Source of the DNA: Chryseobacterium sp. 52
GTDB lineage: Bacteria > Bacteroidota > Bacteroidia > Flavobacteriales > Weeksellaceae
NCBI RefSeq assembly: GCF_002754245.1
Contig: NZ_PEEX01000001.1
Span: 1,468,001-1,532,000 of the forward strand
DNA: 64,000 bases
Direction: 5' to 3'
Positions 7,275-59,100 of the stretch are shown here, one piece after another (the stretch's first letter is position 1; the number at the start of each line of letters is the position of its first letter). A model generated the notes under the pieces. It did not search any database. It saw only the letters and a program-made list of their open reading frames with translations, and was not told the origin of the DNA. A program made the position numbers and the translations under genes.

Positions 7275-8072
7275 ATGAAAAAGACATTTTCTGATGAAGA
7301 TCTAATAAAGAATCTCAGCCTATACTACATGAACCGGCATTTGAAAAAAAAGCCGATGGAGAAATATCACCGTAAAATAGACGAATCTCTGCTTCATGAC
7401 CGCGAAAAATATAGAAAGAAATCTGAGATTCTACTGCTGAATTCTTTTATGCATCATTTTCCCGAGGTGAAATTTGAAGACCTTACCTGTGAAAGTCCTG
7501 ACTTTATCGCAAAGCTCAACGACAAAAAAATCGGAATAGAATTGACCGAAGTGATCAATCATCTGGAAATGAAAAAAGTAGAAAGCACTTTGAATAAGAT
7601 GTTCCGCCAGGCAGAAATATTATTAGAACAGGAAGACACCGCGAAATACCGTGGTGTTTATTTTTTAGAATTTCACCCTAATATCAAGTTCGAGAATATA
7701 GAAGAGCAGGAAGAAAATATCATGAGTATTTACAGAAGCATCAAAAAGAATAAACCTATGGGCTGTGTAAAAGGGATCAGGAAATCTTTTCACCGAAGAA
7801 ATGTTTTTATTACCCATGAATACAGCATGAATCTTTTTGACGAGCTTTGTTCTGAAAAAATTCTTGAACTGATCGACAAGAAAAACGAAAAGTTCCCTTA
7901 TTACGATACCTCTGTAGACGAATGCTGGCTGGTGATTGTTTCTGATATGAATTCCATAGCCTCAAGATATACGTTCATTCAGGATAAAGAACATCTGCAG
8001 GAAGTAAAGAGCCCGTTCCATAAAATTTTTCATCTTGAAAATCTTTGTGGAAATATTACAAGCATAAAATAG
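7275..8072 (+). CDS. Hypothetical protein with a possible PD-(D/E)XK nuclease-like core
   Basis: A 265-residue soluble protein, no signal peptide. The ATG at 7275 (MKKTFSDEDLIKNLS) is preferred to the GTG at 7245. The segment ESPDFIAKLNDKKIGIELTEV (about residues 72-92) has the spacing of a PD-(D/E)XK active site: Pro-Asp on one strand, then Glu-x-Thr on the next, with the usual lysine replaced by threonine. The N-terminal third is a charged helix region and the C-terminal half is mixed alpha/beta with SVDECWLVIVSD. No methylase or partner gene is adjacent, so a restriction role is not indicated. The family is not one I can name; the nuclease-fold idea is inference. Confidence 0.7.
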   Translation: MKKTFSDEDLIKNLSLYYMNRHLKKKPMEKYHRKIDESLLHDREKYRKKSEILLLNSFMHHFPEVKFEDLTCESPDFIAKLNDKKIGIELTEVINHLEMKKVESTLNKMFRQAEILLEQEDTAKYRGVYFLEFHPNIKFENIEEQEENIMSIYRSIKKNKPMGCVKGIRKSFHRRNVFITHEYSMNLFDELCSEKILELIDKKNEKFPYYDTSVDECWLVIVSDMNSIASRYTFIQDKEHLQEVKSPFHKIFHLENLCGNITSIK

Positions 8073-46400: not shown

Positions 46401-47041
46401 CAGGAAATCGTACCAATTCCTCGCTTTCATTTATGGGAATCCAAAGTTTGAGTGCTTACCATTCTTCCCAAGATAGATTAGCAGCAGGAATTAGAGGAAG
46501 TAAGGCAGCTCTTGCAACAGAAAAGTTTGAAAAAAACCTTGCATTTACAATGGGAACTTTCCTGATGGGAGGAAGTAATTTATTAGCTTCTGCTGGTTGG
46601 GCTACTCTTGATGTGGTGGTTGATTATCAAGATACTGAGGATCAGGAAGCTATTCAAGCTGTGCAGCTGGTGGCGGTGGGCTTGCAAGTAAAACATGGAA
46701 ATGTTAAAGGTCTACAAAATCTGACTCTTGAAGCTAAAGGAGATGATGCATTGAAACTTTTGGGAGCGGTAAAGGGGAGCATTGCAGGTACAAAAGCGGC
46801 GTTAGCTGAAGCGAAGTCTATGATTGGTTTAGAAGCATCAGAAGCATTACCTAAAATGGGGACTGGGAAATTTGGAAGTCCTCAAAGAGGAACTGGATTG
46901 AAAGGATATAGATTAGATCCTGCACATCCAAATGCTAAGCCTGGTACTGGTGAAGAATACCCACACGTAAATTACTGGGATTATTCAGGAGGGAAAAGAG
47001 GAAAAGGAGGAATTAGTGGAGCAATACCAATAAAACATTAA
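43430..47041 (+). CDS. RHS-repeat polymorphic toxin-like protein (DUF6443 N-terminus)
   Basis: A 1,203-residue protein. The ATG at 43430 gives a signal peptide (MYKKIYISLGLLWGLHHYGQ); the GTG at 43406 overlaps the upstream gene and is rejected. Residues about 45-170 are a DUF6443 domain (IQSVQFFDGLGRPKQAVSIK, TPIPYDGFGRQ). YD repeats follow, then the RHS core from about 860 (YTDHLGNTRLSY, YYPFGLKHEGYN, YKYNGKELQESGMYDYGARFY, DPLSELQFADNPYSYVFGNP, FNDPTGMF). The tip after the PTGMF is about 235 residues and ends GYRLDPAHPNAKPGTGEEYPH...NYWDYSGGKRG, with His, Asp and Trp residues that suggest a small RNase- or nuclease-like toxin of a family I cannot name. Codon style changes to AT-rich near the tip. 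Confidence 0.85.
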   Translation: MYKKIYISLGLLWGLHHYGQVVLTSPPVPNTEVGDPQSIRLLPGFNFNSVNGTFRAYIGGSSSHNPGTYTPITVDYSATIPNTENYIYTRQYLVPTEVSNGSLQQIQSVQFFDGLGRPKQAVSIKSTPTGKDLVTPIPYDGFGRQVDSWLPVPMSSQSGNIQSGVESSATAYYQSNGINDSSPFSHKNLENSPLDRILSQNNPGSDWQNKPVVFGYDTNTAGEVKKYTTVTSWVDGATSSELSLSGTYDAAQLYKNTVTDEDNSKTIEFKNGRGQTLLVRKAISASENADTYYVYNEFDQLAFVIPPLASASVSISSSALEHLCYQYKYDDRSRLVEKKLPGKGWEQMIYNKKDQVILYRDTVLKNGIPNFTADQSWAFTKYDQLGRVTYTGISRDVTPRQSIQSYIDNQAVNVSYEARGGSFTLNSMTLEYGNVSYPTSIDKILAVSYYDTYPQGAPAVPGTILGQDVLPQTTQSSNVSTKSLPTASYVRNIEDESWTKAYTYYDKKGRAISAHSVNHLGGYTKTESFLKFSGVPEYTLTQHQRVAGGTIINTKETFEYDHQERLVRHWHEVNGGTKELLAENLYNDLGQVQTKNVGNTTGSPLQSVKYAYNIRGWLTKVNDPSNLQNKLFAYELRYSRPDSQFSGSARYNGNISQMSWITQSDAVLRNYSYEYDALNRLKEGRFWDAMNLSRGEYHEQLTYDLNGNIKTLLRRGKQLPGYTAPEVMDDLEYHYENGEQSNKLAYLKEVGTGNALSGYPLSSGSTGSTIGYDLNGNMTTQQDKSISSIQYNYLNLPGKVTQNSKVTDYTYRADGVKVKKIFGTETTDYLDGFQYENGTLKFLPTAEGYFNFETGKYVYNYTDHLGNTRLSYYKNGSGAEIIEESNYYPFGLKHEGYNVMLGNPAYKYKYNGKELQESGMYDYGARFYMPDLGRWGVIDPLSELQFADNPYSYVFGNPIRFNDPTGMFGEDPPTRGYSPGSPIEIGEIVLTGNRTNSSLSFMGIQSLSAYHSSQDRLAAGIRGSKAALATEKFEKNLAFTMGTFLMGGSNLLASAGWATLDVVVDYQDTEDQEAIQAVQLVAVGLQVKHGNVKGLQNLTLEAKGDDALKLLGAVKGSIAGTKAALAEAKSMIGLEASEALPKMGTGKFGSPQRGTGLKGYRLDPAHPNAKPGTGEEYPHVNYWDYSGGKRGKGGISGAIPIKH

Positions 47042-47045
47042 ATAT

Positions 47046-47471
47046 ATGGAAAGTTTCAAAAAAGAATTATTTAGAAAAGAATATAATACTGATTTTCCTT
47101 TTTATGATGAGTTAAAAAATGAAGAGTGTATTAAAATAAAAAATAATATTATAGATAAATATCAAATTCAAGAAATTTATTTTGATAATAATTTAAATAA
47201 AATACAGATTTTTTTTGATAGATTAAATGCTGAAGATGAAAATTTTAATTTTTTAAATTTAATCAAAGAATTAAATTTAAAAGAAGACAATGATATATAT
47301 GTAACTTGGAATTCTTTTGTAAATGTCGATAAGTTTACACTAAAAGATTTTTGTAAATATTTCAATGATATTTGGTATCCTATGGCAGATGACATTGAAA
47401 TATCAAATCAAAATTTGAGTTGGATAATATCAATCAGACACGATGGTGCAATATATTACATTAAATCATAA
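47046..47471 (+). CDS. Probable immunity protein for the RHS tip
   Basis: A 141-residue acidic cytoplasmic protein starting 4 bases after the RHS stop. It has no signal peptide. It is very AT-rich, with Asn, Asp, Ile and Lys dominating, quite unlike the RHS body. The position directly behind a polymorphic toxin tip and the size are those of immunity proteins; I do not recognise the family. A GC-rich palindrome and terminator follow. Confidence 0.65.
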   Translation: MESFKKELFRKEYNTDFPFYDELKNEECIKIKNNIIDKYQIQEIYFDNNLNKIQIFFDRLNAEDENFNFLNLIKELNLKEDNDIYVTWNSFVNVDKFTLKDFCKYFNDIWYPMADDIEISNQNLSWIISIRHDGAIYYIKS

Positions 47472-47482
47472 CAGTCCCTTAC

Positions 47483-47507
47483 TGGCGCGAGCTTGTAGCT
47501 CGTGCCC
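47483..47507 (+). repeat. Palindromic element R1 behind the immunity gene
   Basis: GGCGCGAGCT-TGT-AGCTCGTGCC, a 10-bp stem with one G-T pair, GC-rich in an AT-rich surrounding. Similar palindromes end the next two modules (47857-47880 and 48471-48491). Confidence 0.6.
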
Positions 47508-47519
47508 ATTAATAAAAAT

Positions 47520-47555
47520 AAACCACTGTTTTTACAGTGGTCTTATCATTTTTGC
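47520..47555 (+). terminator. Hairpin terminator after palindrome R1
   Basis: ACCACTGT-TTTT-ACAGTGGT (47522-47529 with 47534-47541), followed by a TCATTTTT stretch. Confidence 0.6.
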
Positions 47556-47601
47556 TCTGAAAGCATTATTTAATCTATATTGTGACTTTTTACACCTTTA
47601 A

Positions 47602-47802
47602 AAATTAAAAACTAAACTACAAGAGGTGGAAAAGAATGTTATTAACTATGGCTCAGCATATACTGGCGTCAAAACAGTTAACGATGTTTTTAAGAAAACT
47701 GGAGTAAATGGATTAACTGATCAACTATTTAAAAAAGAAGATAAAGATAAATCTAGGCAAGGTAAATTATCAATTGGCGAAGTGATAAACGAAAAATTTT
47801 GA
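47602..47802 (+). pseudogene. Displaced toxin-tip remnant
   Basis: An open frame of about 66 codons without a start ATG, following an in-frame stop. The peptide (VINYGSAYTGVKTVNDVFKK... ending KLSIGEVINEKF, TGA at 47800-47802) looks like the end of a secreted toxin. Only this C-terminal end is left. The next, truncated frame begins 4 bases after the stop, the same spacing as between the live RHS gene and its immunity gene. Confidence 0.5.
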
Positions 47803-47806
47803 AAAA

Positions 47807-47854
47807 ATGAAACAAAAATTTTATAAAAGTCAAATTCTAATTATCTTCCCCTAG
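47807..47854 (+). pseudogene. Truncated second immunity gene
   Basis: ATG at 47807 opens MKQKFYKSQILIIF and is cut by a stop (TAG at 47852) on entering palindrome R2. It looks like the first 15 codons of a gene whose remainder has been lost. Inference rests on spacing and position. Confidence 0.35.
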
Positions 47855-47856
47855 CT

Positions 47857-47880
47857 ACCGCACGAATCCTTTCGTGTGGT
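47857..47880 (+). repeat. Palindromic element R2
   Basis: ACCGCACGAA-TCCT-TTCGTGTGGT, a 10-bp stem with one G-T pair. It shares the CTACCGCACGA core with R3, and its right flank (AATAATAACAACCACTG) resembles that of R1 (AATAAAAATAAACCACTG). Confidence 0.6.
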
Positions 47881-47931
47881 GAAGTAATAATAACAACCAC
47901 TGCTATTTTAGCCTTGAAAGTATGATATAAC

Positions 47932-48423
47932 ATGAAACAATTTATATACACCCTTGAACATATATATACCGACGAAGATCATACTGCTATTAAACTTTTA
48001 GGTTTTTTTGATGATTTAACGAAACTGGGAAAAATAAGAGATAAGGCATTGGAATTTCCGGGATTCCGGGACTATCCTGATGGCTTTTTGATCATAAAAA
48101 AGGAATTGAATAAAGTACAGTGGAAGAATGGTTTTAACTCTGTGATCGGAGAGGTAGGAAGAGATTATGTCCCTGAAAAAGATGAAATAAATACAGATGT
48201 TTATGTTGTTCAAAATTTAACAACTATATTCAATGTGAGCCATATATACACGATTGATCGATATTTAGATGATGAAAGAATTATTGGTGTATTTTCAAGT
48301 TTAGAGAAAGTAGAACATAATGTAGCAAAATTAAAACAGCAACCTGGATTTAAAGAGCATCCGGAAGATTTTATGATTTGTGAAATAGAACTGAATAGAC
48401 TTTTATGGACTTCCGGTTTTTGA
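47932..48423 (+). CDS. DUF7336 protein with two tandem copies of the domain
   Basis: A 163-residue cytoplasmic protein made of two similar halves (about residues 1-70 and 88-163). Both show I/V-Y-T-L/I near the start, a G-F/V-F strand, PGF(R/K)(D/E)(Y/H)P(D/E)(G/D)F and a (V/L)(Q/L)W(K/T)xGF end. This is the pattern of DUF7336 domains, which stand behind toxin genes as probable immunity proteins. The duplication is a direct observation. No toxin gene is directly upstream, so it may be an orphan immunity gene. Confidence 0.7.
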   Translation: MKQFIYTLEHIYTDEDHTAIKLLGFFDDLTKLGKIRDKALEFPGFRDYPDGFLIIKKELNKVQWKNGFNSVIGEVGRDYVPEKDEINTDVYVVQNLTTIFNVSHIYTIDRYLDDERIIGVFSSLEKVEHNVAKLKQQPGFKEHPEDFMICEIELNRLLWTSGF

Positions 48424-48470
48424 TTTTAAGAAATTATTCTTGTTATTCCTGTCAAAGTCTGTCCCCGCTA

Positions 48471-48491
48471 CCGCACGATTGCATCGTGTGG
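48471..48491 (+). repeat. Palindromic element R3
   Basis: CCGCACGAT-TGC-ATCGTGTGG, 9-bp stem, 47 bases behind the DUF7336 gene. The left flank GTCCCCGCTA resembles TTCCCCTAGCTA of R2. Confidence 0.6.
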
Positions 48492-48502
48492 CAGACAAAA
48501 AC

Positions 48503-48534
48503 AACCCCTCGCAAGTTGCGAGGGGTTTGTGTTT
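48503..48534 (+). terminator. Terminator after palindrome R3
   Basis: ACCCCTCGCAA / TTGCGAGGGGT, a perfect stem (48503-48526) followed by TTTGTGTTTT. It lies between convergent genes. Confidence 0.75.
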
Positions 48535-48590
48535 TATAATGCAGCTATATTTTTATTAAAGAAAGCTTTAAATATTTTTAGAAATTATAA

Positions 48591-48983
48591 TTACTTGTTC
48601 TGAAGTAAGTTTTCCAGCCGTGCTATCATATCATCTTTTTCTTTGAGCATTCTTTCATATAACTCAATCATTTTATCTATCGGATTGAATGTGCATTGTA
48701 TGTTTTCGGCAGTAGCGTGTGCTATTGAGCCATCGTGGAAAGTATTAGAAATAATGTTGATTGCCTGCTCCTCATCAAAATTTTGAAAAGCTTCTACGGG
48801 AATTTTCAGTACTTCAGATATTTTCTGAAGCAATTGGTTTTCGATAGTTTCTTTTTGTTCAAGTAAAGAGATTTTCTTCTGGTTCCAATCATCGCCCAAG
48901 TCAGAAGCCAAAGCTTCCTGCTTGATGCCCAGCATTTCTCTAAAACGTTTTATATTTCTTCCCTGGTGTATTTTGTGGTCCAT
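48591..48983 (-). CDS. XRE-family helix-turn-helix regulator
   Basis: A 130-residue protein with an N-terminal HTH (about residues 8-65: GRNIKRFREMLGIKQEALASDLG, then QKKISLLEQKETIENQLLQKISEVL). The C-terminal 40 residues form a coiled coil (IDKMIELYERMLKEKDDMIARLENLLQ), probably for dimer formation. It may act on its own promoter, where AAATATCC is repeated at 49040 and 49052. Regulators of this make are common in Chryseobacterium accessory DNA. Its target is unknown. Confidence 0.85.
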   Translation of the reverse strand: MDHKIHQGRNIKRFREMLGIKQEALASDLGDDWNQKKISLLEQKETIENQLLQKISEVLKIPVEAFQNFDEEQAINIISNTFHDGSIAHATAENIQCTFNPIDKMIELYERMLKEKDDMIARLENLLQNK

Positions 48984-49005
48984 TCTTAATCAATTTGTGA
49001 AGGTT

Positions 49006-49013
49006 CAAAGATA
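49006..49013 (-). promoter_or_regulatory. -7 element of the XRE regulator gene
   Basis: TATCTTTG on the minus strand, 23 bases before the start codon. Two direct AAATATCC copies (49040-49047, 49052-49059) stand at about 26-46 bases upstream of it. Confidence 0.45.
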
Positions 49014-49086
49014 ATACATTCTATAAATTAAAGTTAAAAAAATATCCGGTAAAATATCCATTATTATAAGTACAATATGATAGATA

Positions 49087-49281
49087 ATGTCTTTGATCAA
49101 AGAAACCACTTTGCCCGAATATAAAGAGTTAAGGCTCATCAGCGTTAGGAAAGTATATCTTTTTATCAGAGAAAAGTCATTGAATAACTTCCCGGGGTGG
49201 CTGCAGGTATTTCAGAAGAGGGTAGAGGGACTTCCTAAAGTAGATATAGGGACTTCCGAAGGGGGGGAAGGGGGTCAATAG
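49087..49281 (+). CDS. Doubtful short open frame before a G-rich stretch
   Basis: A 64-codon frame (MSLIKETTLPEYKELRLISV...) divergent from the XRE gene. The first 50 residues look protein-like; the end (GTSEGGEGGQ) is translated from G runs and looks like read-through into non-coding DNA. No ribosome site or homologue is known to me. It may be a decayed gene. From 49282 to 49456 no gene is seen. Confidence 0.3.
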   Translation: MSLIKETTLPEYKELRLISVRKVYLFIREKSLNNFPGWLQVFQKRVEGLPKVDIGTSEGGEGGQ

Positions 49282-49400
49282 GGTTCGCTAACGGGGTACT
49301 GACCGTTTAAAAAGGGAGTAAAGGGAGTTGTCTAAAGGGCTGGAGACTGTTCATATGGTGTCTTTAGACGGGTAGAAAACGGGGTAAGGCCTTAGAGGGT
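49220..49400 (+). other. Island of G runs (possible quadruplex-forming DNA)
   Basis: Thirteen separate runs of three or more G lie on the plus strand within about 190 bases, including seven in a row at 49261-49267, in a chromosome that is otherwise AT-rich. GGGACTTCC occurs twice (49227 and 49249 areas). Confidence 0.5.
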
Positions 49401-49456
49401 ATAATCTGACCTCCACAGAAAAAATAAAAAAACTAAATTTACATGAAAGAATCTTC

Positions 49457-50026
49457 ATGAAAACACCCATCACCTGCATCTTTTCCTTTACCTTCCTTCT
49501 CATCACATTTTCCTGTACAACCTACATAAAACCCATCCACACAGAATCAGTGCCCGATTCCGCCAACATAACAAGAAAATTAATCCTTCAGAACGAAACT
49601 CAGGATGTTAATTTCTACGGAGACTATATATTTGATAAAGTAGATAGAAAGTTCCTCTTTTTTACCAATAAAGAAATCAGAGGAGTTCTCAGTAACCTTA
49701 AATTAAAACCGTCCTCACAGGTTCTTTTTACGTATACCAGATTCAGTATTTACAATAATATGCTGGGGTTCTATTATACCGGAAAAACTTTGGCAGATAT
49801 AAAGACTAATTTCTCCATCAGGACCCCGGAAAAAGAAATGCAGAACGGACTTTTATATGCTTATGAATACAAAGGGTTTTATATTATGGAAGTTTTCAGG
49901 CAGGAGGAAAAAGGAGTGTTGCGGTTTATTTCTATCAATAACTCTGCAAAACAGTCTGTGGATAAATTCAGACAGGAAAATACAGGTCTGTTCTTTGAGG
50001 TTAATTCCGGACTGTTGAACCCATAG
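49457..50026 (+). CDS. Hypothetical lipoprotein
   Basis: A 189-residue lipoprotein. The signal segment MKTPITCIFSFTFLLITFSC places the lipid cysteine at about residue 20, followed by TTYIKPIHTESVPDSANITRK in outline. The body is beta-rich with many Phe and Tyr (FYGDYIFDKVDRKFLFF, LLYAYEYKGFYIMEVFR). I know no family. It has its own spacer on both sides and is not clearly in an operon. Confidence 0.7.
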   Translation: MKTPITCIFSFTFLLITFSCTTYIKPIHTESVPDSANITRKLILQNETQDVNFYGDYIFDKVDRKFLFFTNKEIRGVLSNLKLKPSSQVLFTYTRFSIYNNMLGFYYTGKTLADIKTNFSIRTPEKEMQNGLLYAYEYKGFYIMEVFRQEEKGVLRFISINNSAKQSVDKFRQENTGLFFEVNSGLLNP

Positions 50027-50129
50027 TATTTACGGATATTTTAGAGGAAATATATTGATTTTAGGATGCTTATAGCAGATTTGTTTGTTATATTTGTTAC
50101 ACCGTCACACCACACAAAATCTTATCGCC

Positions 50130-51662
50130 ATGAAAAAAATCCTTTTAGCCATTCTAGGCATTCTTGTTATTGTAGTTGCCGTACTTTTAATCAAAACTTT
50201 TACTTATCCTTTTAAAAAAAATACAGCAGGAAATTCCGAAGGATGGAAACCTGTGAAAAATGACTCCGCAGTAATGCGACTGTCAGGCGGTCTCAAAATT
50301 CCTACGGTGTCAACAGGAAGTTTAGGAGAATTCAATTATGCTCCGTTCGATCAGTTTAAAGAATACCTGAAAGCCTCTTATCCTCTGGTGTATCAGAACA
50401 CTGAAAATGATGAGGTTAATCAGCATGCATTGGTTTTTAGATTAAAAGGAAGTGATTCTACATTAGAGCCCATACTTTTCTTATCTCATATAGATGTGGT
50501 GCCTCCCGGAGATGCCGATGTGAAAAATAAAGAACAGAATATTTTCAGACCCGATGACAAACCATTGCCTCCCGTTTCCAAAGTAGCGGAAGACTGGGAT
50601 TTTGAACCCTTTTCAGGAACCGTTGCCAACGGAAGAATCTACGGAAGAGGCGCTATTGATATGAAAGGAATGCTCTTCTCCCTGATGGAATCCATGAATC
50701 AGATGATCAAAAACAAGCAGGCTCCCAAACGCGATATTTATCTGGCCTTCGGTTTTGATGAAGAAGTGGGCGGACAGAAAGGAGCCATGCAGATTGCAGA
50801 ACATTTTAAGAAAAAAGGACTTAGTTTCGATGCTGTGTATGATGAAGGAGGTTTGATTATGCAGAAAGGAAATGTGGCAGGCATAGATTCTGATGTAGCG
50901 GTGGTAGGTTGTGCCGAAAAAGGCTTTTTATCAGCAAAGATCAAGGTGAAAGGACTTGGAGGACATTCCTCAATGCCTCCCATGGAAAGTGCTATCGGAA
51001 AAGCAGCAATCATCATGCAGCGGCTTGAAGATCACCAGATGAAACCTACCATTACGCCCCTGATCAAAAATTTCTTTGATAATATTGGCGGGGCCATGCC
51101 ATTCTCCAGCAGACTTGCCATTTCCAATCAATGGCTCTTGAAACCACTTCTGTTGTCCAAACTTACAAAAAGTAATACTACCAATGCTCTGGTTCGTACT
51201 ACAACTGCCCTCACCATGATGAAAGGAAGCGATGGAACCAATGTTCTTTCTCCTGAAGTGGAATTTGTGGTCAATTTCAGACTTCTTCCCGGAGACAGTG
51301 TGAAAGATGTAGAAAAACATATTGCAAAGGCCACAGAAGGCTTTGAGGTAGAAGTAGAAGAGATTGATAATACAAGAGAGGCTTCTGCAGTTTCCCCAAC
51401 CAACACCAAAGCGTATCAACTCATAGAAGCCGGCGTAAAAGAGATCCATCCCGGAGCGATTGTAACCCCGTATCTTACTATGGCTGGTACAGATGCTGCA
51501 AAATACCAGATTGTCAGCAAAAATATCTACAGATTTATGCCCATCAAAATCAACAGCTCAGAACAGCAGAGCATCCACAGCACCAATGAGTATGTCAGTA
51601 TAGAAAATTACCTTAAGATGATCCATTACTTTGAGTATATGATGAAGAATTACGATAAATAG
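50130..51662 (+). CDS. M20-family metallopeptidase (PM20D1/CPS1-like)
   Basis: A 510-residue peptidase anchored by one N-terminal helix (MKKILLAILGILVIVVAVLL). The ATG at 50130 is chosen; a longer TTG-led form would add 15 polar residues in front of the anchor. The metal ligands of the M20 family are visible: LSHIDVVPPG (His), GRGAIDMKG (Asp), FDEEVGGQ (Glu pair), DEGG, and the final HSTNEYV His. The bacterial-exopeptidase dimerisation domain is inserted at about 275-400. It may act as a carboxypeptidase or N-acyl amino acid hydrolase outside the cell. A TATATTTG -7 element lies at 50089-50096. Confidence 0.9.
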   Translation: MKKILLAILGILVIVVAVLLIKTFTYPFKKNTAGNSEGWKPVKNDSAVMRLSGGLKIPTVSTGSLGEFNYAPFDQFKEYLKASYPLVYQNTENDEVNQHALVFRLKGSDSTLEPILFLSHIDVVPPGDADVKNKEQNIFRPDDKPLPPVSKVAEDWDFEPFSGTVANGRIYGRGAIDMKGMLFSLMESMNQMIKNKQAPKRDIYLAFGFDEEVGGQKGAMQIAEHFKKKGLSFDAVYDEGGLIMQKGNVAGIDSDVAVVGCAEKGFLSAKIKVKGLGGHSSMPPMESAIGKAAIIMQRLEDHQMKPTITPLIKNFFDNIGGAMPFSSRLAISNQWLLKPLLLSKLTKSNTTNALVRTTTALTMMKGSDGTNVLSPEVEFVVNFRLLPGDSVKDVEKHIAKATEGFEVEVEEIDNTREASAVSPTNTKAYQLIEAGVKEIHPGAIVTPYLTMAGTDAAKYQIVSKNIYRFMPIKINSSEQQSIHSTNEYVSIENYLKMIHYFEYMMKNYDK

Positions 51663-51960
51663 TTACGGGGTACTGGTTTCGGGTTCCGTGATGCGGGTTT
51701 AGAGTAAGAGAGTTGCTAGTTGCTGGTTGACAGTTGCTTGTTCGAATCTCGAAAATCGTATCCCGAAACATGTTTGACATCTGACACCCTGGCTCTCGAA
51801 TCCACTATTCACATTCGAAACAAAATTCATCATTCACATTTTCCAACCTAAGTCTCAGCTTTAACCTTAACCTTACACTTAACCTCAGTCTAAAATCTCA
51901 TGTCTAAAATCTAGCATCTTGATTCCTGGCTCTTGCATCTTGACTCTTTTCACAAAAAAA
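51663..51960. repeat. Low-complexity intergenic stretch of degenerate short words
   Basis: About 300 bases without a coding frame, made of short recurring words: TCTAAAATCT twice, ATTCACATT twice, AACCTTA-like steps, GCTxGTTGCTxGTTG steps, and (A)TCTTGA(T/C)TC(C)T steps at the end. I saw no gene, tRNA or hairpin terminator in it. Similar spacers occur in Chryseobacterium chromosomes, which is from general knowledge. Confidence 0.5.
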
Positions 51961-51992
51961 ATAACACGTCAAGTTTTGTCGCATTACCGCTA

Positions 51993-52000
51993 TAGCTTTG
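51993..52000 (+). promoter_or_regulatory. -7 element before the gene at 52022
   Basis: TAGCTTTG matches TAnnTTTG and overlaps the TTG at 51998 that would be the longer start, which argues for the ATG at 52022. Confidence 0.45.
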
Positions 52001-52021
52001 TCCTATCAAAATTACAGAGCT

Positions 52022-52723
52022 ATGGAATTGCCGTTTTACTTAACATTTAAAGAATTTGAAAGCCATTATTACGATACCCTTGAAAAATGGTTTGAAGAAT
52101 ATCATAATACCAGCGAGATCGATTACCTGAAGGCCCTTGCAGATCTTTACAGCCCCTATCTGTCCTACAGTTTTGCAGATGACAGACTTCTGGCTGATGC
52201 TTCTATGGAGATCAAAGACTGCTTTTTTCCTTATCATGAAAAGATCGGGATCTCTTTCTGTACGAGTTGTGAAAATGGGAAATACCCTAAAACATCCAAA
52301 GGTATGAACCATATATTTGAGTGGAAAACCATTACGATGATGGAATACGCGCAGCATATACTGGATAAGATTAATAGGCATCTGTTAAAAAATGGCAGTT
52401 CTCTGGACGGAAATACAACCATCCTGGATTATATCAATGATCGTGAAATCATCACATCAAGGGAAGGGGCTGGATATTGTGTCAATTACAGCAGACATCA
52501 GGTTGCAGTTCCGTTTTTGAAAGCTTACCTTCCTTATTACGGACAGACGGTTAATATTGCGGTGTACAGAGACTTTATTTTTTCCATAGCACAGATTGCA
52601 GAATATATCGATAGAAAACTGAGGTCTGTACAGGCTTTTGAACATACCGTTTATGCTCAACTGAAATCAGAAGCGAGATTCAAAGTACAGATGAGTCATC
52701 AGTTTCTCACCATCTGTAATTAA
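52022..52723 (+). CDS. Hypothetical cytoplasmic protein
   Basis: A 233-residue soluble protein (MELPFYLTFKEFESHYYDT...). It is rich in Tyr and His and mostly helical. CTSCENGKYPKT shows a CxxC pair (about residue 82) without partners nearby. No signal peptide or membrane segment is seen, and the family is unknown to me. The start is set by the -7 element just upstream. Confidence 0.65.
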   Translation: MELPFYLTFKEFESHYYDTLEKWFEEYHNTSEIDYLKALADLYSPYLSYSFADDRLLADASMEIKDCFFPYHEKIGISFCTSCENGKYPKTSKGMNHIFEWKTITMMEYAQHILDKINRHLLKNGSSLDGNTTILDYINDREIITSREGAGYCVNYSRHQVAVPFLKAYLPYYGQTVNIAVYRDFIFSIAQIAEYIDRKLRSVQAFEHTVYAQLKSEARFKVQMSHQFLTICN

Positions 52724-52866
52724 AAATTTTACACCATACATTCATATTTAAATTATATTGTCGGAAAACTTTCAATGGTTTTCCAAACAAATCCTGGTAG
52801 CAATACCGGGATTTTGTTTACCCATCACCGTATCATTATTTTAGTCCATCACCTTTCCAGAAAGTT

Positions 52867-53193
52867 GTGCTTGATTATCTGACTTGGTTCGGAGTTGATA
52901 AAAAAGGCAATATAAACTGTAATAGAGTCTATCCAACCCGTATTGAAATTCTGAAAGCTCAAAGCAAAATCAGAGAATATGGATTTAAGACAGTAGGGTT
53001 TATTGAGAAACTTGCAGTTTCTGAGTTCTTGAAAATGAAGTCAAAAATGCCAGAGTTAGACCTAGCAAGCTTTGTTTGTTATTTTGAGGGATGTTATCAT
53101 AATTTTAAAGCCGTCAAATTAATCCCAATAGGGGCTAGAAAATCAAATGAATTAATACATATTATACGACTCCATAAAGAGGGTTTTAATTGA
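52867..53193 (+). CDS. Hypothetical protein or 5' part of a frameshifted gene
   Basis: A 108-residue frame with a GTG start (LDYLTWFGVDKKGNINCNRV...). The frame is open for another 34 codons upstream to a stop without an ATG. The end overlaps the next open frame (from 53156) by about 38 bases in another phase. The peptide looks natural, with a mixed alpha/beta pattern, but has no name I know. A single shifted gene is as likely as two genes. Confidence 0.4.
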   Translation: MLDYLTWFGVDKKGNINCNRVYPTRIEILKAQSKIREYGFKTVGFIEKLAVSEFLKMKSKMPELDLASFVCYFEGCYHNFKAVKLIPIGARKSNELIHIIRLHKEGFN

Positions 53194-53569
53194 AATTCAG
53201 AGCTATTTACAGGCTGAAGATTTAAGAACCAGAATCGAGTTTACTTTCACTGAAACCAACAACTGGAATAACTTTTTTAGGGTTCAGGAATTCATAACCT
53301 CATTTTGTAAGATAGCCTTAGATTGTGATGAGCTAGGAAAGTTGTCTATGACTTACTTTATAAATCCCCATCTTAAAGAACTTGTAAGTGAATCTTTGGG
53401 AGATGCTGTTGAAAAACATTTTGATGAGTTAGATAATTATAAAATGAAAGACTTTATAAAAATGATTCCTTTGGAGAGGAGATACGATAGATACTTTGAA
53501 GAGTTGTTGAGATTTACAAAGATATACCCACATTACAAAGCTATTATTACAGAGAAAAATTCTTTATAA
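53156..53569 (+). pseudogene. Open frame without a start codon, possibly the 3' part of the frame before it
   Basis: About 137 codons open from an in-frame stop at 53153 to TAA at 53569. The peptide (IKRVLIEIQSYLQAEDLR, then FTETNNWNNFFRVQEFI) reads like real coding, but there is no ATG until 53348 and the first possible start is a TTG at 53342. Residues after that are MTYFINPHLKELVSES and on to HYKAIITEKNSL. It is joined in phase +1 to the frame before it. Most likely one broken gene. Confidence 0.4.
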
Positions 53570-53613
53570 AGCAAAAGACAAGCATAGACCTTTTACGAGG
53601 TTTTAGAAAAAGT

Positions 53614-53646
53614 AATTTCCTCCAAATTTCAGAGGGAATTTTTGTT
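53614..53646 (+). terminator. Possible terminator after the broken gene
   Basis: AATTTCCTC with GAGGGAATT (one G-T pair, loop of 9) followed by a T run. Confidence 0.45.
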
Positions 53647-53802
53647 CTTGTACATAGTGTAAGCACTTATATGTCATGTTTTGTATATTAAAACATTGAT
53701 AGTTAATTGTTTATTGAAAAAACAAATAACAGATGGAGTTTTAGTCACATTTTTAGTTGTTTTTCGATACTCAAAAATACACAAATGAGATATTGTGTTC
53801 AG

Positions 53803-54891
53803 CTATATTTTTTTGATAAAATCCTGCATTCCGTAAGACTCAATTGCTTTTTGTTTCAGAGGGTTTGTACTCCATTCTTCCCATTCACCAGTATAAGGAT
53901 TGTAGCCACACTTTAAAGGCTTGGAGGTATCAAGTCCATTGTTAAAACTTGTTTGTTCGGTGTAGGCTCTACAATCAGTGCAGATGTAACGGAATTCACA
54001 ATCTTTGCAAACTTCAATAAGATCTTTGGTTAAGTTCCAATATTTTTTAAATTCAGGATGATTTAAAGCATTTTCTAATGCTGTATTCTTGATGTTTCCA
54101 AAACTTTGAGGCATGGAGGGGCAATTTTTAATGTTGCCCTTTACATCTATTGATATTTTTTTGTTAAGACAGGAATTGTGCTGTTTGGCTTCGAGATAAA
54201 AGTTACGATTAAGATTGATATTTTTTAAATCAATCAATCCACAACTTAAAGGGATATTAATTTTATTTTTAATGATACTTAGTTGAACATGTTCTAAAGT
54301 TTGAGAATCCTGTTCATCCGATGAATGCAATATAAAATGGAGAAATTTATTTGAAATGCTGTAGTGATTCTCTTTGATAAATGTAACCAATTGTAAGTCA
54401 TAATTTGCAACAAGTGATACTTCATTAATACTAGAATCATTAAGCAAATTTAATTTACTAATTATGTTTATTATATCATTTAATTCCAGTTCTGAAAATC
54501 TTATTTGTAGATATTTAATTCTCAAATCACAAATTTGTTGTATCAGCACATCATTTAAGACATCTGAATTATTGACATCCAAAATTAAATAATCAACATA
54601 AGAAGGGGTTTCTTTAAATTCTGAGACGCTCTTAAAAGTTGATAGTTCTTTCTTAGAACTTAAAATAATTCCTAACTTATTATCTATGATAAAATTAAGA
54701 TACTCTTCTAAAGCTTCTAAGCTCTCTTTATCCAATTGTTTTTTTAATACAGAATAGTTTTGATGTTCATTTGATAGTAAATCAAAAAAAGCAATCGGAA
54801 TAAGTTGCAAAAACCCAGTACTTGTATCCAAAATAATAGAATTTGTAGCTCCTCGGGTAATTTTAACCGAGTCAAATAACTTTAAAAACAT
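53803..54891 (-). CDS. gwsS: Grasp-with-spasm system SPASM-domain peptide maturase
   Basis: A 362-residue protein of the SPASM-with-grasp type. The N-terminal half has no CxxxCxxC radical-SAM motif. Cysteines gather in the C-terminal half: SCGLIDL, NSCLNKK, KNCPSMP, then VCKDCEFRYICTDC and LKCGYN, the arrangement of a SPASM domain with room for auxiliary Fe-S clusters. In this family the protein works beside an ATP-grasp ligase on a GG-leader peptide. Its start lies 2 bases after a 54-codon gene. It is the last gene of the minus-strand operon. Its catalytic role is unproven. Confidence 0.88.
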   Translation of the reverse strand: MFLKLFDSVKITRGATNSIILDTSTGFLQLIPIAFFDLLSNEHQNYSVLKKQLDKESLEALEEYLNFIIDNKLGIILSSKKELSTFKSVSEFKETPSYVDYLILDVNNSDVLNDVLIQQICDLRIKYLQIRFSELELNDIINIISKLNLLNDSSINEVSLVANYDLQLVTFIKENHYSISNKFLHFILHSSDEQDSQTLEHVQLSIIKNKINIPLSCGLIDLKNINLNRNFYLEAKQHNSCLNKKISIDVKGNIKNCPSMPQSFGNIKNTALENALNHPEFKKYWNLTKDLIEVCKDCEFRYICTDCRAYTEQTSFNNGLDTSKPLKCGYNPYTGEWEEWSTNPLKQKAIESYGMQDFIKKI

Positions 54892-54893
54892 AC

Positions 54894-55058
54894 TTAATAC
54901 AAAAGGGAATAATGTTTTTGTGAACGGAAAATCTTTGTTTTTCCACTTTTTTTATCTTTATTTTCAGAATATTTAACTTGAGACACACTGTTGCTTCTCT
55001 TCCATTCCTGTAGAGAAAATTCGATTCCTTTTAGGTGTAATTCTTTTTTTTCCTTCAT
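54894..55058 (-). CDS. Small 54-residue protein embedded between gwsG and gwsS
   Basis: This short gene fills the gap between the ATP-grasp and SPASM genes exactly. Its ATG overlaps the gwsG stop as ATGA (55055-55058), the mark of translational coupling, and its TAA ends 2 bases before the gwsS start. The peptide begins MKEKKELHLKGIEFSLQEWK and is highly basic (about a dozen Lys and several Arg), without cysteine and without a GG leader, ending KHYSLLY. It may be a helper or docking protein for the two enzymes. I know no family for it; the reality of the gene is inferred from the packing. Confidence 0.65.
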   Translation of the reverse strand: MKEKKELHLKGIEFSLQEWKRSNSVSQVKYSENKDKKSGKTKIFRSQKHYSLLY

Positions 55059-55981
55059 AATAAATCTGCAATATGCTTTTCTATTTGATAGTTTCCATAG
55101 TAACTGACTTGGTGAAACTGTCCTAATGGATTAACTTCTAAAAAATAATCATCATCATCAGACTTTAGTAAGTCAACCGTTCCACACTTAAAGTCCAGTT
55201 TCTTTGCCAATTTTAAAATTTTCCTTTTCAGTTCTGATGGAAGTGCAACGGGAAGATATCTTTTGTCTCTCTCTCTTATGTTCCTAATATCAACATTGTA
55301 AGAAAAATCAAATGTAGCAATTGCCCAAATCTGCTTTTCAAAAAAGAATGCCCTTATTTCATAAAGACAATCAATCTTTCTTTGAATTAATGAAGGTATA
55401 ATATTTTCTTCTTTATCATGAATATCATTTAGGTCTACTTCATGTGTGTAATTCAGATACAGGTCATTTTCAACGATAATCGGTTTCATTTCAGAGACTG
55501 CTTTTGTAATATAAGCCTGAGATATGTCAATCTGCTCCAAGTCCTTTAATCCTGATAAAATGTAAGTACCGGGAATTTTTAAGCCTAGAGATTTTGCCAA
55601 AAATAAAACTTCTAACTTATTAACTTCTTTGGTGAAGAGGTTTCCAAATACACGAACCCCATTTACCTTGAAATAATAGTAAATAAACTCCGATATAGAT
55701 TTGAGTTCAGAATTATAAAAATCAACTAAATTACTATCTATTTCACCTGTTATTGTATCATAATAAACTCCTCCATTTCTATAGAATACTGATTTGAAGT
55801 CTTCTAATTTATACTCAATTTCTCCAATAGAAATTTTGAAAACATTACTTTCAAAATTGAAAAAAACTTTGTTGATATGTTGGTTCTCACTTAAACGAAC
55901 AAATTCTTTATTTTGATACGATAACCAAGTACAAATCTCATCCGTCATTGTATCATTATCTACACTAATGATTAGTATCAT
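55055..55981 (-). CDS. gwsG: Grasp-with-spasm system ATP-grasp peptide maturase
   Basis: A 308-residue ATP-grasp ligase of the graspetide (microviridin MvdC/MvdD-like) type, which joins side chains of a precursor peptide by ester or amide bonds. Visible blocks are the N-terminal RNGGVYYD, KLEVLFLAKSLGLKIPGTY, ITKAVSEMKPII (lysine for ATP), LIQRKIDCLYEIRAFFFEKQIWA, and DFKCGTVDLL...YFLEVNPLGQF with the Asp, Glu and Asn that bind magnesium. It overlaps the gene before it by 17 bases and the small gene after it by 4. Confidence 0.9.
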   Translation of the reverse strand: MILIISVDNDTMTDEICTWLSYQNKEFVRLSENQHINKVFFNFESNVFKISIGEIEYKLEDFKSVFYRNGGVYYDTITGEIDSNLVDFYNSELKSISEFIYYYFKVNGVRVFGNLFTKEVNKLEVLFLAKSLGLKIPGTYILSGLKDLEQIDISQAYITKAVSEMKPIIVENDLYLNYTHEVDLNDIHDKEENIIPSLIQRKIDCLYEIRAFFFEKQIWAIATFDFSYNVDIRNIRERDKRYLPVALPSELKRKILKLAKKLDFKCGTVDLLKSDDDDYFLEVNPLGQFHQVSYYGNYQIEKHIADLL

Positions 55982-57005
55982 CTAATTTAATTAAATACTT
56001 TTTAAATAATTCAGCATCATTATTATTCTTAAACTGAAACCCTTCTACAGTAATACTCGTAAAAACATAATCTTTATTACTTAAAAAGAATATATTTTTT
56101 TTAGCCTCTTCGTCAGTTGATGTCAAACCTATTAATTGCCTTTTTCTGTTAATCTCTTTTATTTTAGTAGTTACTTCTGCTGCTCTCTTTTCTGGTAAGA
56201 TTGCCTCGGATATATAGCAGCAATCTGCTTTCTCATTATTAACAGTAAATTGATAAATTTTAAAAAATGAATAATCCTTTGTTCCATTATTTAAATCAAG
56301 CAATTGTCCTGCAATGTCTGGCCTTATCTTTCCTTCATTTAAAGCCCCTAGTATCTCTTTTGAAAAATTAACTTTCTGACTGCTATAGTGATTATTAGCT
56401 AATTGATGCCAAATAATGTAATAAAATTTTTGATAGAACATATTATCTGCTGAAGCCAGTCCAATATTATATTCATTAGGAAATCCTTTCTTTTGAATCA
56501 ATCTAAGCAAATTGGTGGCTGCAATACTGTCACTTTTTGTGAGTTCTTTTTTATATGCTTCATAGTTACCCCCTGACAATTTTCTATAATACTGGTCTAG
56601 TTCATACAGTGAATCTAAAGTTTTTTTATATTGTAAGTCAATCTTGTTTTCACAAGGTTTTATTTTATACTTCTCACTATTTTTAAAATTTTCAGATAAA
56701 AAACTAATATCAAACACCTTTCCTAAACATTTTAACGAATGATAATCATAATAAGCATTTTCAAAATCCTTCACTCTTAAAGCCACATTCATACTGTTTT
56801 GTAAATCTTTTGCATGTGGTTTGAATTCTTTAAAAGCTTGTTTATATAGATTGTTTGCTCCTGCTAAATCATTAGAGATAATTTTATTTTCAGCTTCATT
56901 TACCAACTCATAGTACTTGAGAAGATACTGACTTTTCAGCTCAAAATCTTGAGCACTTATCGTTGAGCTGAATAGTGCAAACAGTAATATTAATGTACTT
57001 CTCAT
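55965..57005 (-). CDS. Secreted helical protein of the grasp-with-spasm operon
   Basis: A 346-residue exported protein with signal peptide MRSTLILLFALFSSTISAQ. The mature part is nearly all helix, rich in Lys, Asn and Tyr, with TPR-like spacing near residues 25-75 (YYELVNEAENKIISNDLAGAN, LYKQAFKEF). Cysteines occur in SLKCLG, KPCENK and DCCYIS. I do not know the family. Its stop lies inside the gwsG start region, so the two are translated together. It may act at the envelope on the finished peptide (export, cleavage, or immunity), which is inference. Confidence 0.75.
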   Translation of the reverse strand: MRSTLILLFALFSSTISAQDFELKSQYLLKYYELVNEAENKIISNDLAGANNLYKQAFKEFKPHAKDLQNSMNVALRVKDFENAYYDYHSLKCLGKVFDISFLSENFKNSEKYKIKPCENKIDLQYKKTLDSLYELDQYYRKLSGGNYEAYKKELTKSDSIAATNLLRLIQKKGFPNEYNIGLASADNMFYQKFYYIIWHQLANNHYSSQKVNFSKEILGALNEGKIRPDIAGQLLDLNNGTKDYSFFKIYQFTVNNEKADCCYISEAILPEKRAAEVTTKIKEINRKRQLIGLTSTDEEAKKNIFFLSNKDYVFTSITVEGFQFKNNNDAELFKKYLIKLDDTNH

Positions 57006-57058
57006 TGATATTTATTAATTGCAAAATGAGAAGCATATATGCTTCTCATCTTTTCTTT

Positions 57059-57325
57059 TTAAGGGTTGCAAGATTTATCTATTGGATATGTTCCATTGTA
57101 CCCCACACCTCCGTTATGGAAATCCAAATCACTTGTATAACCTGTACATACGCATGAACCCCCTGGGCCTGAGGGCAGTTCAACTTCTCCACCTCCCGTA
57201 ACTGTTGGTTCAACTCCAAGCCCAAAACTTGGTACAGCAGGACCTCCCTGTCCCCCTAAAACTGTTGATAACTTCTCGTTTTGAAGTTGAAAACTTCCTA
57301 ATTTTTGTAATAATTTTGTTTTCAT
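57059..57325 (-). CDS. gwsA: Grasp-with-spasm precursor peptide
   Basis: An 88-residue peptide. The ATG at 57325 gives MKTKLLQKLGSFQLQNEKLS followed by TVLGGQGG, a leader ending in a double glycine as in CFB-group natural product precursors. The middle is Gly, Pro and Val rich (GPAVPSFGLGVEPTVTGGG). The core at the end reads SCVCTGYTSDLDFHNGG and on to YPIDKSCNP: three Cys, several Thr/Ser next to Asp, the donors and acceptors for side-chain ring closure by an ATP-grasp ligase. The TTG one codon before is a less likely start. It lies first in the operon, 53 bases before the secreted helical protein. Confidence 0.85.
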   Translation of the reverse strand: MKTKLLQKLGSFQLQNEKLSTVLGGQGGPAVPSFGLGVEPTVTGGGEVELPSGPGGSCVCTGYTSDLDFHNGGVGYNGTYPIDKSCNP

Positions 57326-57402
57326 CAAATAAATTTTAAAATAGTTAATAAATTGTTTTTATTAAATTCACTAAATATTAATTGTTGAATCGGTGAATTG
57401 TT

Positions 57403-57434
57403 TATCAAATAAACATGATTTATATCAAATAAAC
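57403..57434 (-). repeat. Tandem 20-bp spaced repeat upstream of gwsA
   Basis: GTTTATTTGATA (minus strand) occurs at 57403-57414 and 57423-57434, exactly 20 bases apart, about 80-110 bases upstream of the gwsA start. A related TTATTTGATG sits at the start codon itself. It may be a regulator-binding pair or duplicated promoter parts. Confidence 0.45.
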
Positions 57435-57711
57435 AAATTTTTACAACTTTTTTTAATGACTCAATCGTTTTGTAATTATACAGATATTAATAAAAAACGA
57501 TTATAAATACTAACATTTTGCCATATAATGAATGCGACTAGTACTTTGTCAATATCCAAACTTGTTTTGGTTGAAATTTTTAACATTAAAAACCAATAGT
57601 TTTTTAAAATTTAACAATAGAAACTTACCTTAGCAGTTGAGCTAATTTTTATATATTACCCAACCTTCTATATGAACAAGAAGCCCCTCCTATTATTTGA
57701 GTTTGGGTATT

Positions 57712-57740
57712 ACCCCCTCTTTTTTTAATCGGGGTTTTTT
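57712..57740 (+). terminator. Possible terminator on the plus strand in the gwsA-tRNA spacer
   Basis: ACCCC with GGGGT (long loop of about 14) followed by six T. An ACCCAA/TTGGGT inverted pair lies just upstream (57658-57663 and 57703-57708). No gene is visible before it. The rest of 57329-57893 is AT-rich without coding frames. Confidence 0.35.
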
Positions 57741-57893
57741 CTATTCATTTGAAAAAAGACAAAATATTTTTAGTTTGGAGATTTTTAAAGAGATACAACA
57801 GCCAATTTTACCCCTAAAAATTTACTAAATGTGGTGCTGAGATAAGAAATCACTAATCTTTGTTATATGAAAAATGTGGGAAAGAAAACCTTA

Positions 57894-57930
57894 ATAAAAA
57901 CAAAAACCCACTGAATATCAGTGAGTTTTA
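57894..57930 (-). terminator. Terminator after tRNA-Ser
   Basis: AAAACCCACTGA with TCAGTGAGTTTT, one mismatch, and a T-rich run on the minus strand, 12 bases beyond the tRNA end. Confidence 0.6.
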
Positions 57931-57941
57931 TTTAATATCAG

Positions 57942-58028
57942 CAGAGAGGAAGGGATTCGAACCCTCGATACAGTTACCCGTATACTACCTTTCCAGGGTA
58001 GCTCCTTCAACCACTCGGACACCTCTCT
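57942..58028 (-). tRNA. tRNA-Ser (anticodon GGA)
   Basis: 87 nt on the minus strand with acceptor stem AGAGAGG/CCTCTCT, anticodon stem CTACC/GGTAG around CTGGAAA, a long variable arm, and GGGTTCGAATCCC. CCA is not encoded. It stands at the border between the accessory block and housekeeping genes. Confidence 0.95.
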
Positions 58029-58083
58029 ATTTGAGATTGCAAAAATAGAGTAATTTCTGGAATCTGCAAATTATTATTTAAAA

Positions 58084-59100
58084 TTAGTTAGTAATTTCTC
58101 CACAAAGACTTTTCGTGAAGTTATCAGCAAAGCTTCCTGAGTAACTAGGATTGTCTATCAGGTGCATAGCCTTGGTGATGGCCGTTTCCGCTGTCATATC
58201 CCTTCCGCTGATTGCTCCGATCCTTGAGAATATATTACTGTTTTCATACTTTCCGAATGAGATACCTCCTGAAATACACTGACTTACCACAACGATTTCA
58301 GTTCCGTTATTTCTGATTTCCTGAAGCGTGTCCTGGGTTTTTTCACTGCTGAAAATAGTTCCCGATCCAAAAACCTGAAGAATTAAAACCTTCATTTTAG
58401 GGATTTCTTTAAAGTGGCTCAGGTGCATGCCCGGAAAAATTCTCCAGAACAGAATATCTTCAGAAATATGTTCATCTACATGAAATTCTACTTCAGAATC
58501 ACAACGGTAGAGATTATCCTTGACGATATTTAAATGTACTCCCGACTGTCCCAGAATAGGGTAGTTCGGGCTTGAATAGGCATCAAAATACTCAGCAGAA
58601 TATTTCAGTGTTCTGTTTCCTCTTAGTAATTTATATTCAAAATAAACGGCAACTTCCTGAATAACAGCCTCGTCATTTTCATAAAGGCTGGCATAATAAA
58701 TACTGGTCAGAAGATTTTCTTTTGCATCCGTTCTCAGATCTCCGATAGGAAGCTGTGAACCGGTCATAATCACAGGTTTTCTGAGCCCTTTTAGCATGAA
58801 ACTTAAAGCAGAAGCCGTATAAGACATCGTATCCGTTCCGTGAAGAATCAGAAAGCCGTCATACAATTCATAATTTTTGAGAATGTAGTTCGCGATCGCC
58901 TTCCATTCCTCAGGCCCCATATCCGAAGAATCCAGCGGTTTTGCGAAAGGATGTACAAACACTTCGCATTCCATTAGTTTCATCTCGGGCATTTTTTCGA
59001 AAATATTTCCAAAATCAAATGCACGGAGGCTTCCGGTTTCATAATCTTTTTCCATACCGATGGTTCCTCCGGTATAGATGAGCAGGACTTTTCGTTTCAT
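58084..59100 (-). CDS. ansA: Type I (cytoplasmic) L-asparaginase
   Basis: A 338-residue enzyme that hydrolyses asparagine to aspartate and ammonia. TGG(T) in YTGGTIGM (residues 10-13) holds the first catalytic threonine and HGTDTMSYTAS (87-97) the second with the Asp. TGSQLPI, GNRTLKYSAEYFDAYSSPNYP and SQCISGG are further family marks. No signal peptide, as in AnsA. A TAATTTTG -7 element lies at 59147-59154 (minus). Confidence 0.93.
   Translation of the reverse strand: MKRKVLLIYTGGTIGMEKDYETGSLRAFDFGNIFEKMPEMKLMECEVFVHPFAKPLDSSDMGPEEWKAIANYILKNYELYDGFLILHGTDTMSYTASALSFMLKGLRKPVIMTGSQLPIGDLRTDAKENLLTSIYYASLYENDEAVIQEVAVYFEYKLLRGNRTLKYSAEYFDAYSSPNYPILGQSGVHLNIVKDNLYRCDSEVEFHVDEHISEDILFWRIFPGMHLSHFKEIPKMKVLILQVFGSGTIFSSEKTQDTLQEIRNNGTEIVVVSQCISGGISFGKYENSNIFSRIGAISGRDMTAETAITKAMHLIDNPSYSGSFADNFTKSLCGEITN

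Follow-up and report, generated by a model that had tools for sequence, protein, structure and literature searches.

The 64,000-nucleotide stretch of the Chryseobacterium sp. 52 genome analysed here (contig NZ_PEEX01000001.1, positions 1,468,001 to 1,532,000; the window) includes five open reading frames (ORFs) arranged head-to-tail on the minus strand from 57325 to 53803. They encode, in order, a precursor peptide, an exported protein, an ATP-grasp ligase (GwsG), a small basic protein of 54 amino acids, and a SPASM protein (GwsS) (Table 1). The exported-protein gene overlaps the ligase gene by 17 bases (55965-55981), and the ligase gene in turn shares 4 bases (55055-55058) with the gene for the 54-aa protein; two bases (54892-54893) separate the latter from the SPASM gene. 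All five ORFs and their exact spacing had been described correctly in an earlier reading of the window without database searches (the sequence-only reading).

GwsS scores 288.8 bits against the NCBIfam grasp-with-spasm model TIGR04193 (cut-off 175), and its residues 242-299 match the Pfam SPASM family PF13186 with 29 bits (cut-off 21.5). The best family for the ligase is TIGR04192, which it matches over its full length with 208.7 bits (cut-off 230; next family 74.7 bits). The ExNPxGQ motif is kept in the window ligase, and its residues are invariant across 13 sequences. The ligase and SPASM genes are neighbours, and a precursor with a double-glycine (GG) leader is encoded upstream of the ligase. 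The locus is confirmed as a grasp-with-spasm graspetide locus, a known system (TIGR04192/TIGR04193; "branch 5" of Makarova et al. 2022, PMC8939145). The SPASM and ATP-grasp assignments of the sequence-only reading hold, as does its naming of the system. Its description of the locus as complete was too strong, as no C39 peptidase-transporter is encoded nearby; the two matches in the genome are at C1:42146 and C1:3641301, and other transporter types were not searched.

Ligases from 11 of the 17 clade loci that have one were scored against NCBIfam. The 10 relatives gave 194.8-222.1 bits on TIGR04192, and, with the window included, all 11 fall below 230. Given these scores, the ligase is a divergent relative of TIGR04192 and not an equivalog as NCBI defines it. 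The window precursor has no match among Pfam or NCBIfam models, and 2 of 10 precursors scored touch a curated model, both below its cut-off. The subclade is therefore under-annotated. While the type of system is known, the window copy is a divergent and little-described variant.

TIGR04193 proteins are currently named peptide maturases and are described in print as radical S-adenosylmethionine (SAM) enzymes. The CxxxCxxC motif of the SAM cluster is absent from GwsS, as the sequence-only reading had stated for its N-terminus. The motif is likewise missing from every one of the 112 full-length sequences found in the best 120 listed among 3,941 homologs, and from 33 of 33 loci of the genus, including the three TIGR04193 genes of the source genome (a single 5.3 Mb contig). 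The assignment of GwsS as a radical SAM enzyme was rejected, as both the motif and the Pfam searches were negative in the proteins checked. Cys 217, 241, 257, 295, 298, 304, 307, and 328 are invariant in 48 sequences, and this pattern, which was defined after the alignment had been inspected, is present in 112 of 112 homologs checked. As in the anaerobic sulfatase-maturating enzyme (anSME), the eight cysteines are presumably ligands of two auxiliary clusters.

In the structural model of GwsS, residues 1-79 form a winged fold of strands and three helices, as in the recognition element of ribosomally synthesized and post-translationally modified peptides (RiPPs), and residues 97-216 form about half a barrel. 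No relative emerged when the GwsS profile was compared with solved structures, the one match being at E 0.4. Near the top of the Foldseek list were SuiB (5v1q) and the sactipeptide enzyme of 5why, both weak whole-chain matches. They share with GwsS the order of recognition element, barrel, and SPASM region; unlike them, GwsS lacks the SAM-cluster motif, and its model shows roughly half of a barrel only. The sequence-only reading had left open whether GwsS is a non-radical partner or an unusual enzyme, and the evidence favours the former. GwsS looks like a peptide-holding partner and not a radical enzyme, as it has so far been called, and the modelled fold suggests that it may bind the leader via residues 1-79.

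Shorter or weaker relatives of GwsS were also observed. Proteins from L179, L181, and L192 are below the TIGR04193 cut-off and lack the full eight-Cys pattern, forming a series of further degenerate forms. One set of 10 loci gave nine rows, with none for L180, and L177 was covered only partly. Matches to the C-terminal SPASM half only (69-78% identity) were found at G026:C3:441112, G108:C1:4123784, G076:C3:352988, L057, L059, and L069, and those in G026, G108, and G076 lie in open frames of 166-174 aa. They are either gene remnants or stand-alone SPASM proteins.

TIGR04193 matches above the cut-off occur in 106 of 148 genomes of the genus. In the subclade around the window, 18 loci were compared, window included, and the named relatives are mostly Chryseobacterium. 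The same five genes in the same order are present in 12 of these (the window and 11 others), one of which, L079, has its ligase gene split into two pieces in different frames. No match to the exported protein was found in L088 and L089, which keep the precursor and maturation genes. L144 has no exported protein and only part of the SPASM gene, L087 starts at a contig end, no precursor match was found in L143 at E 0.01, and L082 is reduced to a broken small gene and the SPASM gene. Ratios of non-synonymous to synonymous substitution (dN/dS) indicated purifying selection on all genes compared. The L079 ligase (two frames) and the L080 and L081 SPASM genes were left out of this comparison, and the L081 ligase ratio is absent owing to saturated dS. 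The L079 ligase was also left out of the ligase alignment, and its first 270 residues were used in the identity comparison. Two of the checks proposed in the sequence-only reading, a search with the grasp-with-spasm families and a comparison of locus order, gave the scores above and 11 loci of identical order, so the concern that no homologous locus exists elsewhere falls away. Purifying selection and the order conserved elsewhere point to more than chance as the source of the locus.

The gene for the 54-aa protein has dN/dS values of 0.10-0.15 in all four comparisons with relatives, and its family occurs in 16 of 173 genomes of the genus, the source genome included. The protein occupies the slot held by LPL-type proteins in other grasp-with-spasm loci. 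A relationship to LPL was not upheld, as no LPL motif is present and hhalign against the set of proteins from the LPL slot gave E 0.16.

Thirteen precursors were aligned, those of L142 and L144 being left out. The leader is conserved as far as the GG region, beyond which Thr43, Gly46, Gly56, and Asp66 are invariant, Asp66 lying within an aromatic-[TS]-[SG]-D motif. The number of cysteines per precursor is one or three, with Cys before the TSD-type motif in 11 of 13 and solely after it in L088 and L089. Precursor dN/dS was 0.19-0.32 in four comparisons. The text on branch 5 in Makarova et al. 2022 (PMC8939145) names a conserved pair of Thr/Ser and Asp/Glu, and by analogy Thr43 and Asp66 would be the best candidates for an ester ring. 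The locus probably makes a short peptide that is closed by side-chain rings.

The window and L080 share nearly the same maturation genes but differ in the precursor and exported protein. Protein identities are 0.90, 0.98, and 0.90 for the ligase, small protein, and SPASM protein, respectively, as compared with 0.58 for the precursor and 0.63 for the exported protein. At the nucleotide level, identity is 0.63-0.75 in the exported-protein gene, 0.79 in the block at its junction with the ligase gene, and 0.87-0.99 in the maturation genes, and drops to 0.40-0.60 past both ends of the locus. Within the precursor, the leader block is 0.79 identical and the core block 0.52; hence the leader travels with the maturation genes. 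The L080 exported protein is nearest to that of L090 (0.76; next 0.66), and the L080 precursor is about equally near to those of L090 (0.60) and the window (0.58). Over 12 loci, identities of the precursor and exported protein remain correlated once those of the ligase and SPASM genes are accounted for (partial r 0.64, Mantel p 0.0002). A partial correlation of 0.45 between the precursor and the small protein indicates that this signal is partly unspecific. Weighing against a coupled cassette of core and exported protein, the precursors of L083 and L084 are 0.98 identical, yet their exported proteins are only 0.78 identical.

A stem-loop lies between the precursor gene and the next gene in the window and in all 12 other loci folded. 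Eleven of the 13 hairpins align, those of L080 and L086 (different stems) being left out. In this alignment, both sides vary in 7 of 11 pairs and pairing holds in 95.9% of cells, as compared with 45-64% when the pairing is slid along the alignment; the structure was drawn from the same sequences as used for covariation. Clear stem-loops were found at the same place in 5 of 8 other grasp-with-spasm loci folded. The hairpin is a possible partial terminator or mRNA-stabilising stem. In a terminator scan it was terminator-like on the plus strand only, not on the operon strand, and a role in protecting the precursor mRNA is therefore no less likely than partial termination.

The tRNA-Ser gene that the sequence-only reading had noted at the border proved meaningful as the apparent insertion site of the locus. 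The far side of this gene was compared in four relatives. In G004, the sequence about 75 bases after the tRNA matches the window at 52820, and 52821-57940 is missing. In G002, 1.8 kb of other DNA occupies the site beyond the tRNA, and in G012 and G010 no match to the window was found past the tRNA within the stretch fetched. The neighbour of the tRNA in G012 is a 411-aa phage-type integrase (PF00589, E 1.5e-15). The G+C fraction of 52821-57940 is 0.294, as compared with 0.371 for the rest of the window, and none of 191 windows of equal size outside it is as low (minimum 0.320). Thus, the locus is best read as a block that seems to have been inserted at the 3' end of tRNA-Ser. A direct repeat of the tRNA of the attachment-site (att) type at the other end of the stretch was rejected, as 57900-58100 and 45000-57890 share no 13-base word. 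A deletion in the relatives is a less likely alternative.

A tRNA gene lies at most 1 kb upstream of the precursor in 4 of 15 clade loci (Ser in the window, Arg in L035, Asn in L081, and Phe in L083), some of which hold little upstream sequence, and in none of 24 loci of other clades. L081 sits between two tRNA-Asn genes (2749-2823 and 7604-7678) with 53 identical bases in common, and this arrangement suggests a tRNA-associated insertion there as well. The two short ORFs at the end of the stretch distal to the tRNA gave no Pfam match. An ORF at 51998-52723, outside the stretch, was considered as an RteC relative but likewise gave no Pfam match.

The genome carries two further grasp-with-spasm loci. 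L076 (C1:1536687-1537721), about 10 kb beyond tRNA-Ser, is different in content: it has a pair of lipoprotein-like genes and encodes a small LPL-motif protein. It looks like a resident copy, since TIGR04193 matches in six genomes (G002, G004, G005, G006, G007, and G010) sit 9-11 kb from the same tRNA region. In L077 (C1:3514956), there are several genes resembling precursors, and the SPASM gene is preceded by the gene for another small protein.

Table 1. Features of the grasp-with-spasm locus and its surroundings in the window.
Feature	Position	Strand	Basis or remarks
Precursor peptide, 88 aa	57059..57325	-	GG leader, residues 1-25; core with Thr43 and Asp66
Hairpin between precursor and next gene	57026..57049	-	covariation in 11 loci
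Exported protein, 346 aa	55965..57005	-	signal peptide (by eye); DUF6624-like C-terminal domain
ATP-grasp ligase GwsG, 308 aa	55055..55981	-	TIGR04192, 208.7 bits (cut-off 230)
Small basic protein, 54 aa	54894..55058	-	dN/dS; occurrence in the genus
SPASM protein GwsS, 362 aa	53803..54891	-	TIGR04193, 288.8 bits; Pfam SPASM, residues 242-299
GwsS residues 1-79, RiPP recognition element fold	54655..54891	-	modelled
GwsS residues 97-216, half beta/alpha barrel without SAM-cluster motif	54244..54603	-	modelled
GwsS residues 217-328, SPASM region with eight invariant Cys	53908..54243	-	alignments
Low-G+C stretch with the locus, about 5.1 kb, at tRNA-Ser 3' end	52821..57940	.	missing in G004
tRNA-Ser(GGA), probable insertion site	57941..58028	-	
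Two short ORFs, 108 and 75 aa, possible broken gene remnants	52867..53569	+	no Pfam match

The exported-protein family comprises 83 proteins at E 1e-3, and D137-Q138, KGFP (173-176), and H200-Q201 are invariant in 24 members. None of these 24 matches DUF6624 (PF20329) in Pfam at E 1. A pairwise comparison of the family profile with 27 DUF6624 rows (two identical) gave a probability of 96.6 and E 5.2e-10. DUF6624 is also matched, at 2.2e-12, by a protein that fills this slot in a Chitinophagales locus. By profile, the C-terminal domain appears to be a distant relation of DUF6624, short of Pfam membership. Compared with one lipoprotein from the resident locus, the family profile gave a weak match (probability 32). 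The model of the exported protein is mostly helical (mean predicted local distance difference test score, pLDDT, 85.7), and by fold it comes nearest to TPR proteins, though every match is weak; the helical N-terminal part is perhaps TPR-like. Because a signal peptide was recognised (by eye), the protein is expected to act outside the cytoplasm. In Carter et al. 2026 (PMC13097080), DUF6624 is suggested as a possible class of biosynthetic enzyme.

Copies of the exported protein are also present in G001, G057, G059, and G061, genomes without a TIGR04193 match. L094 (G130:C44) has an exported-protein gene and a SPASM fragment beside a C39-peptidase ABC transporter and a HlyD-type gene, with two short GG-leader-like peptides (by eye) nearby. 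In L091, L092, L093, and L095, no other locus gene was found near the exported-protein gene, whose upstream neighbour in L091 encodes the phenylalanyl-tRNA synthetase beta chain.

Instead of serving as a partner, GwsS could itself work as a SAM-free redox enzyme in which the two iron-sulfur clusters drive electron transfer, making or breaking bonds at the core Cys (disulfide, thioether, or desulfurisation). The invariance of the ligands for two clusters and the odd number of cysteines, at least one, in all 13 precursors agree with this. However, fully ligated clusters would offer no open iron site, the position of the precursor Cys is not fixed, and we know of no SPASM enzyme that carries out peptide chemistry without a SAM cluster. 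Such a role is improbable, although thioether formation is proposed for the conserved cysteines in the branch 5 text of Makarova et al. 2022 (PMC8939145). Another proposal is that GwsS pairs with a radical SAM enzyme that is encoded at a different place and acts in trans, which would suit a domain order like that of the radical SAM/SPASM enzymes high in the Foldseek list. No radical SAM enzyme is among the five genes, which tests the proposal weakly as neighbouring genes and partners in the genome were not searched, and we consider it decidedly doubtful.

The exported protein could be for self-protection (immunity) and not a processing or transport factor. It differs from that of L080 along with the precursor core while the maturation proteins are nearly constant, its identities follow those of the precursor, and it occurs in four genomes without TIGR04193. 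Against this stand the divergent exported proteins of L083 and L084 beside nearly identical precursors, the unspecific part of the correlation, the lack of an exported-protein match in L088 and L089, and the fact that adjacent genes recombine together anyway. Immunity is somewhat unlikely. That the locus is a decaying acquired remnant without a product is very improbable. The losses in L082 and the broken ligase of L079 show such decay in relatives, but all five window genes are open and the comparisons indicate purifying selection.

Of the known systems, branch 5 as presented in Makarova et al. 2022 (PMC8939145) has the same layout, consisting of precursors, an exported cluster 23 protein or homolog, a ligase, and a small protein whose gene immediately precedes that of the SPASM protein. 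The exported protein of the window is a candidate for cluster 23 or a homolog. The window differs in that its small protein is not detectably LPL, and in that GwsS lacks the radical SAM motif and has an RRE-like (RiPP recognition element) fold of its own in the model. Since GwsS would carry this fold itself, the PqqD role proposed there for LPL may be needless. Graspetide group 14, as outlined in Carter et al. 2026 (PMC13097080), is one of the closest known systems. In rosaritide (MirB/MirC), the ligase likewise depends on a partner with an N-domain weakly resembling the RRE, whereas MirC is described as a chaperone-domain protein, with no SPASM part mentioned in that description. No characterised product of a grasp-with-spasm locus was found in the open-access literature, subscription papers being mostly not covered.

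The explanation that we prefer, with moderate confidence, is a horizontally acquired graspetide operon with GwsS as the non-radical, leader-binding partner of the ligase, ester rings in the product, and export in trans. Gene content and order, selection, the lack of the SAM motif, the eight Cys, the insertion site, the mosaic, and the covarying hairpin enter it from the sequences, and the recognition-element fold and half barrel from models. Ring chemistry, cluster content, the partner role, export in trans, and the roles of the exported protein and hairpin would follow from these by inference. After horizontal gain of the operon, the ribosome would make the 88-residue precursor with its GG leader, and the hairpin after its gene would keep the precursor mRNA in excess. 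The predicted N-terminal fold of GwsS would hold the leader. The barrel of GwsS is shortened in the model, and the protein would contain two iron-sulfur clusters, both fully ligated, and no SAM cluster. Probably together with the 54-aa protein, it would support the ATP-grasp ligase as its partner and scaffold. The ligase would activate a core Asp (or Glu) and join it to Thr/Ser to give at least one omega-ester ring, the invariant Thr43 and Asp66 being candidates. A GG-peptidase transporter encoded elsewhere would cut off the leader and export the peptide. The DUF6624-like protein would work outside the cytoplasm, either on this particular peptide or against it, in processing, transport, or self-protection.

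A wider proposal, more tentative and held with less than even confidence, is that TIGR04193 proteins as a whole (one search gave 3,941 homologs at E 1e-3) are SAM-independent. They would combine a leader-binding domain with two iron-sulfur clusters, acting as an obligatory ATP-grasp partner or in SAM-free redox chemistry, and the core and exported partner would form an exchangeable cassette on a constant leader and maturation module.

The genus is very rich in grasp-with-spasm loci. If GwsS is a non-radical, leader-binding iron-sulfur partner, searches for SAM-dependent crosslinks aim at a chemistry that does not apply, and the function suggested for the small LPL-type protein has to be reconsidered. 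With two very different cores served by near-identical maturation modules, the window and L080 provide a ready natural test of ligase tolerance.

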